A DNA stretch of 64,000 bases from Thermococcus indicus (GTDB taxonomy: Archaea > Methanobacteriota_B > Thermococci > Thermococcales > Thermococcaceae), in the NCBI RefSeq assembly GCF_006274605.1, contig NZ_CP040846.1:248001-312000 (forward strand), read 5' to 3'. The notes under the pieces were generated by a model. It did no database searches and had not been told where the DNA came from. It was given only the letters and a program-made list of their open reading frames with translations. Positions within the stretch are counted from its first letter, which is position 1. The number at the start of each line of letters is the position of its first letter. Shown in pieces: positions 56,074-56,127 of the stretch. Position numbers and translations under genes: made by a program.

Positions 56074-56100
56074 TATCACCCGCCTTGATTTTGGGTGATA
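56074..56100 (-). promoter_or_regulatory. Potential leader hairpin covering the malE ribosome-binding site
   Basis: TATCACCC (56074-56081) and GGGTGATA (56093-56100) are perfect 8-base arms. In the malE transcript the proximal arm is the ribosome-binding site GGGUGAU itself and the distal arm would pair with it across an 11-base loop. Whether the mRNA starts early enough to include the whole distal arm is uncertain, since TATA predicts a start near 56097. Confidence 0.45.
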
Positions 56101-56103
56101 TAG

Positions 56104-56127
56104 TATCATCGACGGTGATATATATAT
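56104..56127 (-). promoter_or_regulatory. TGM operator and TATA box of the malE operon
   Basis: TATCATCGACGGTGATA (56104-56120) matches the Thermococcales glycolytic motif TATCAC-N5-GTGATA with one mismatch. On the minus strand the TATA box (ATATATATA, about 56118-56127) lies just upstream of it, so the motif is between TATA and transcription start. From established knowledge of Tgr/TrmBL1, that arrangement gives repression relieved by maltose or maltotriose. The regulator is encoded at 58235-59257. Confidence 0.8.

Follow-up and report, generated by a model that had tools for sequence, protein, structure and literature searches.

The malE promoter of the Thermococcus indicus maltodextrin operon: a conserved TGM operator of TrmBL1 and an inverted repeat in the leader

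The DNA analysed here, referred to as the window, comprises 64,000 nucleotides of the Thermococcus indicus genome and contains a maltodextrin (MD) operon. The first gene of the operon, malE/mdxE (54722..56068, minus strand; PF13416/PF01547), encodes the binding protein of a maltodextrin ABC transporter; its top NCBIfam match is MalE, with a score under the cut-off. It is followed on the same strand (47329..54682) by malF-like (54682-53783) and malG-like (53786-52536) genes and a GH57 amylopullulanase gene (52526-48477), all assigned by Pfam/NCBIfam, and by malK-like ATPase reading frames (48446-47329), assigned from reading of the ORFs only. The TrmBL1 regulator gene (58235..59257, plus strand; PF11495 and PF01978) lies 2.2 kb from the malE promoter and matches the equivalog model NF047390 at 663.9 bits (cut-off 650), and the cognate regulator is thus present in the window. 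In T. kodakarensis the regulator Tgr (TK1769) is likewise encoded next to the MD operon (TK1771-TK1775; PMC4158304). A TGM-like sequence with three mismatches, TATCAC-N5-ATGAAT, occurs at window positions 58177-58193, about 40-60 bp upstream of the TrmBL1 start codon, and it is possible that TrmBL1 is autoregulated via this sequence.

Relatives of malE were collected by searching 94 genomes of the family at the protein level, which gave matches in 66. One of these genomes was left out because its match begins at a contig end, and 65 upstream regions were read; loci at 54-65 % identity were kept in this set, some of which may be paralogues. A separate scan of named genomes gave 31 loci, seven of them from Thermococcus or Thermococcales MAGs, and was excluded from all counts, the protein search being the more complete.

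On the minus strand the order of elements upstream of malE is a BRE-like GCGCAAG, the TATA box TATATATA, the TGM TATCACCGTCGATGATA, CTATATCACCCAAAATCAAGGCGGGTGATAAAGAT and the ATG. The BRE adenines are at 56129..56130 in a conserved GCG[CT]AAG, and the TATA box, which is also conserved, at 56119..56126. By the archaeal rules the two adenines of the BRE lie at -34/-33 and the TATA box at -26/-27, and the initiator is a pyrimidine-purine (PMC4158304). The median distances upstream of the start in T. kodakarensis are 23 bp for TATA and 33 bp for BRE (PMC4247193), and in T. onnurineus the TATA centre is near -27 and the BRE near -33 (PMC5316973). In malE, +1 at 56096 is obtained from the BRE adenines as well as from the TATA centre; this would place them at -34/-33 and -27/-26, respectively, and give a 5' UTR of 28 nt with a CA initiator at 56096..56097. 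Of 52 distinct leaders, 37 have CA/TG at the same place and 11 more have it shifted one base on. An alternative pyrimidine-purine step, TA, is present 3 nt upstream, at 56100/56099; there the dinucleotide is pyrimidine-purine in 25 of the 52 leaders and CA/TG in one. As BRE spacing, TATA spacing and the conserved CA/TG initiator agree, we infer that malE transcription starts near 56096. Calibration of the start by the TATA-to-ATG distance in leaderless genes was dropped, as the cases were too few.

The TGM, the operator of TrmBL1, occupies 56120-56104 on the minus strand, immediately adjoining the TATA box (56126-56119), and would span -24 to -8 if +1 is 56096. The plus strand at 56104-56120 reads TATCATCGACGGTGATA, with a single mismatch to TATCAC-N5-GTGATA. 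A preliminary description of this DNA, which reported a near-perfect TGM just downstream of TATA, was right in both letters and positions. With at most one mismatch allowed, the window contains one TGM against 0.07 expected, and 6 of 100 shuffled sequences contained one. The motif is found in 63 of the 65 upstream regions, where ATATATATCAC-N5-ATGATA follows the BRE in unchanged register. TATCAC and ATGATA are invariant in all 63 loci with the motif, as read with a search pattern that left free the last letter of TATCAC and the first of ATGATA and fixed the others; these two pattern-free positions were likewise invariant in all 63. Of the two exceptions, one has a TGM-like sequence in a shifted place (L061) and the other has none in the stretch shown (L059). 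The right half of the TGM (window positions 56104-56109) opens with A, where the consensus has G, in 63 of 63 relatives with the motif. This mismatch is allowed by the published ChIP motif (PMC4706686), and the conserved A-for-G deviation is possibly linked to a promoter element near -10.

The TGM operator of the MD operon is already known from Pyrococcus and Thermococcus, and for the TGM promoters of P. furiosus the action of TrmBL1 has been described by ChIP-seq, footprint and in vitro transcription data (PMC4706686). A TGM below TATA gave repression with nine of nine templates in vitro (PMC4706686), and TrmBL1 in this position is described as repressing by holding RNA polymerase off (PMC4706686, PMC4158304). 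The P. furiosus MD operon is bound by TrmBL1 in vivo according to ChIP-seq (PMC4706686), and its mdxE promoter, of the same operon type, has the TGM below BRE/TATA at the start site (PMC4706686, PMC4158304). In T. kodakarensis, Tgr was reported to repress glycolytic and activate gluconeogenic genes in a TGM-dependent manner (PMC4158304). Repression of malE by TrmBL1 through the TGM, as proposed in the preliminary description, is well supported by the conserved register, the TrmBL1 gene 2.2 kb away and the published P. furiosus data; from these we infer binding and repression by TrmBL1, and its release by an inducer, at malE.

It is rather unlikely that a further TrmB-family protein binds at malE via a half-site TACT overlapping the end of the TGM (ATGATACT). 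A TrmB half-site TACT has been described at the start of P. furiosus mdxE, which is compared with malE here by description, and TrmB weakly represses mdxE through this single site (PMC4158304). In malE, a C follows ATGATA in 52 of 52 distinct leaders, as the search pattern demanded, and the next T is present in 42 of 52. However, TrmB was reported absent from T. kodakarensis (PMC4158304), and the conserved TACT bases may serve promoter melting or initiation instead.

The 17-mer of the malE operator recurs once in the genome with identical letters, at L114 (G000:C1:2208861-2208877), where it is located upstream of the TATA-like sequence of a fructose-1,6-bisphosphate aldolase/phosphatase gene (fbp; NF041126). 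The placement relative to TATA is the opposite of that at malE, and TrmBL1 has been described as an activator from such an upstream placement (PMC4706686, PMC4158304). With identical letters in opposite placement, malE would be expected to be repressed and fbp activated, the outcome being set by position.

The malE leader contains an exact inverted repeat of eight Watson-Crick pairs with a loop of 11 nt, formed by a distal arm TATCACCC (56100-56093, minus strand) and a proximal arm GGGTGATA (56081-56074, minus strand). The proximal arm holds the Shine-Dalgarno sequence GGTGAT (56080-56075), which pairs with the tail of the 16S rRNA of the same genome, ending in GATCACCTCC. Among 271 genes with a Shine-Dalgarno-like motif, sampled from the window and 400 kb of the same genome, two have a stem of at least eight Watson-Crick pairs over the Shine-Dalgarno, malE being one and the second also a TGM gene. 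For a single gene such a repeat is unusual, for a stretch the size of the window not very surprising. At the TGM gene L103 (G000:C1:136956-136972) the operator half complements the Shine-Dalgarno of that gene over 10 bp, which follows from the letters that operator half and Shine-Dalgarno share.

The arms had been suggested to pair over the ribosome-binding site and to add RNA-level control on top of TrmBL1; a full hairpin in the mRNA would hide the ribosome site and perhaps act as a thermosensor. With a start at 56099 or upstream of it the stem would have 7-8 bp and about -9.5 to -10.9 kcal/mol at 37 °C, with a mean Shine-Dalgarno pairing of 0.73-0.83 at 80 °C, and a start at the pyrimidine-purine step 56100/56099 would retain seven of the eight pairs. 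However, with the start at 56096 the TATC of the distal arm is gone and just 4 bp (ACCC/GGGU) are left, for which -3.9 kcal/mol was calculated at 37 °C and no structure was predicted at 75-85 °C. The energy argument for the hairpin was rejected, as it works only with a start upstream of the predicted one. The preliminary description had named a start downstream of 56093 as excluding the distal arm; the predicted start at 56096, inside that arm, comes close to this. A hairpin of this kind probably does not form, as transcription appears to begin within one arm.

Pairing of the Shine-Dalgarno across the relatives depended on the start assumed. From the predicted start the mean in 51 distinct leaders was 0.52 at 37 °C, compared to 0.52 in shuffled leaders, and 0.20 at 80 °C. 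With a start 4 nt upstream, the only one that gave an excess, 35 % of leaders had a value equalled or exceeded by no more than 5 % of their shuffles, and these were mainly leaders of the window's clade.

Comparison of the arms did not favour a hairpin either. In the 16 aligned leaders of the window's clade the third pair is broken in seven, no pair has a two-sided (compensatory) change and five pairs do not vary at all; as CACCC and GGGTG are invariant in this clade, covariation is silent on the core of the stem. The lack of two-sided changes, a direct observation, led to rejection of the hairpin by covariation, and the hairpin is missing in other clades that retain the TGM. The best evidence for it, though insufficient, is the leader of genome G060, 2 nt shorter and outside the 16 aligned leaders, in which AACCACCC/GGGTGGTT pair fully with bases changed on both sides. 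Over 34 distinct arm pairs, own arms matched better than permuted ones (4.68 compared to 4.41; a fraction of 0.009 of permutations was as high), but this slight difference can be explained by relatedness alone, and in the CACC-type group (12 arm pairs) the own-arm fit was not significant (0.20 of permutations as high). With the start falling in the distal arm, and with neither covariation nor excess pairing of the Shine-Dalgarno from that start, the full hairpin in the mRNA is very unlikely, and RNA-level control on top of TrmBL1 was not supported; the repeat is probably not an RNA switch.

A narrower version, in which the 7-8 bp hairpin is a thermosensor atop TrmBL1 repression in a minority of malE mRNAs, those beginning at 56099-56102, appears most improbable. 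Such a hairpin would have a mean Shine-Dalgarno pairing of 0.97-1.00 at 37 °C and about 0.6-0.7 at 85 °C, with predicted melting near the growth temperature. The likeness to hairpins that sequester the Shine-Dalgarno and to RNA thermometers of the ROSE and fourU types is that one malE arm is the Shine-Dalgarno. Unlike these, malE has a distal arm half of which would lie outside the transcript, lacks covariation and would be open at the growth temperature.

The arms could also be read as TATCAC-N15-GTGATA, a wider TrmBL1 operator in addition to the first, with one more helical turn than the TGM, and the preliminary description had raised this too. The arm spacing exceeds that of the TGM by exactly 10 bp, the half-sites in the arms are near multiples of the helical turn from the first TGM, and the TAACAC and TACCAC found in relatives in place of TATCAC are also seen at other TGM-like sites of the genome. 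However, of 62 loci with a Shine-Dalgarno, 18 have TATCAC in the distal place, compared to 63 of 63 for the first TGM, the published P. furiosus ChIP motif has a single spacing (PMC4706686), and the proximal GTGATA is already explained as the Shine-Dalgarno. We thus regard a second operator as highly improbable. The arms do resemble TGM half-sites, as had been noted, and do so because GGTGAT is the Shine-Dalgarno. A two-mismatch TGM over the Shine-Dalgarno (56074-56090) was rejected as well, being at chance level (1.03 matches expected in the window with two mismatches allowed, two found) and having a left half that is not conserved.

The overlap of operator and Shine-Dalgarno letters is not limited to malE. 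Of 20 TGM loci fetched from the genome 17 were readable, and in nine of these the candidate start, picked heuristically, is 19-21 nt from the first base of the TGM, with the GTGAT half in the place of the Shine-Dalgarno. The loci with this arrangement are L100-L102, L104, L105, L107, L109, L111 and L112 of G000. Pattern searches of the 94 genomes were made for TGM strings with an ATG 0-8 nt (near) or 9-17 nt (far) downstream. With each string assigned by its first ATG, GTGAT is preceded by G, giving GGTGAT, in 50 of the 73 near and 13 of the 48 far sites among the matches listed (Fisher 1.4e-5, a guide only, since the species are related and hence not independent). For a gap of 2-4 nt to the ATG the count among the matches listed is 43 of 51. 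A separate Shine-Dalgarno was present, again among the matches listed, in 42 of 51 far compared to 0 of 80 near sites in an earlier count with rows chosen by eye. It appears from these sequences that at many genes of the TrmBL1 type the operator also supplies the Shine-Dalgarno, by way of its downstream half (GGTGAT) located 2-4 nt ahead of the start codon. The main texts of PMC4158304 and PMC4706686 make no mention of Shine-Dalgarno, hairpin, leader or ribosome, and a literature search, the reach of which did not extend to the founding TGM paper (van de Werken 2006), found no title or abstract on an operator half-site as Shine-Dalgarno.

Taken together, malE very probably has a standard TrmBL1-repressed promoter of the Thermococcales maltodextrin operon, and its leader repeat is probably coincidental. 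TBP and TFB would occupy TATA and BRE, and inducer-free TrmBL1, bound to the TGM (-24 to -8) that lies between TATA box and start, would block RNA polymerase. Maltotriose or a similar sugar would release TrmBL1, and transcription would then proceed from near 56096 with a short leader carrying an ordinary Shine-Dalgarno. The inverted repeat would exist since the CACCC of the initiator region happens to complement the GGGTG of the Shine-Dalgarno, half of one arm presumably remaining outside the mRNA.

An inverted repeat of this kind in a leader can be mistaken for a riboregulator. Because the half-site of the operator, the complement of that half-site and the Shine-Dalgarno are nearly identical in letters in Thermococcales, start-site inference and covariation are needed before RNA control is called. 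The comparison also yields a precise family-wide promoter layout of BRE-TATA-TGM-initiator. Use of the TrmBL1 operator as the ribosome-binding site at many glycolytic genes, which is suggested here, would tie operator evolution to translation.
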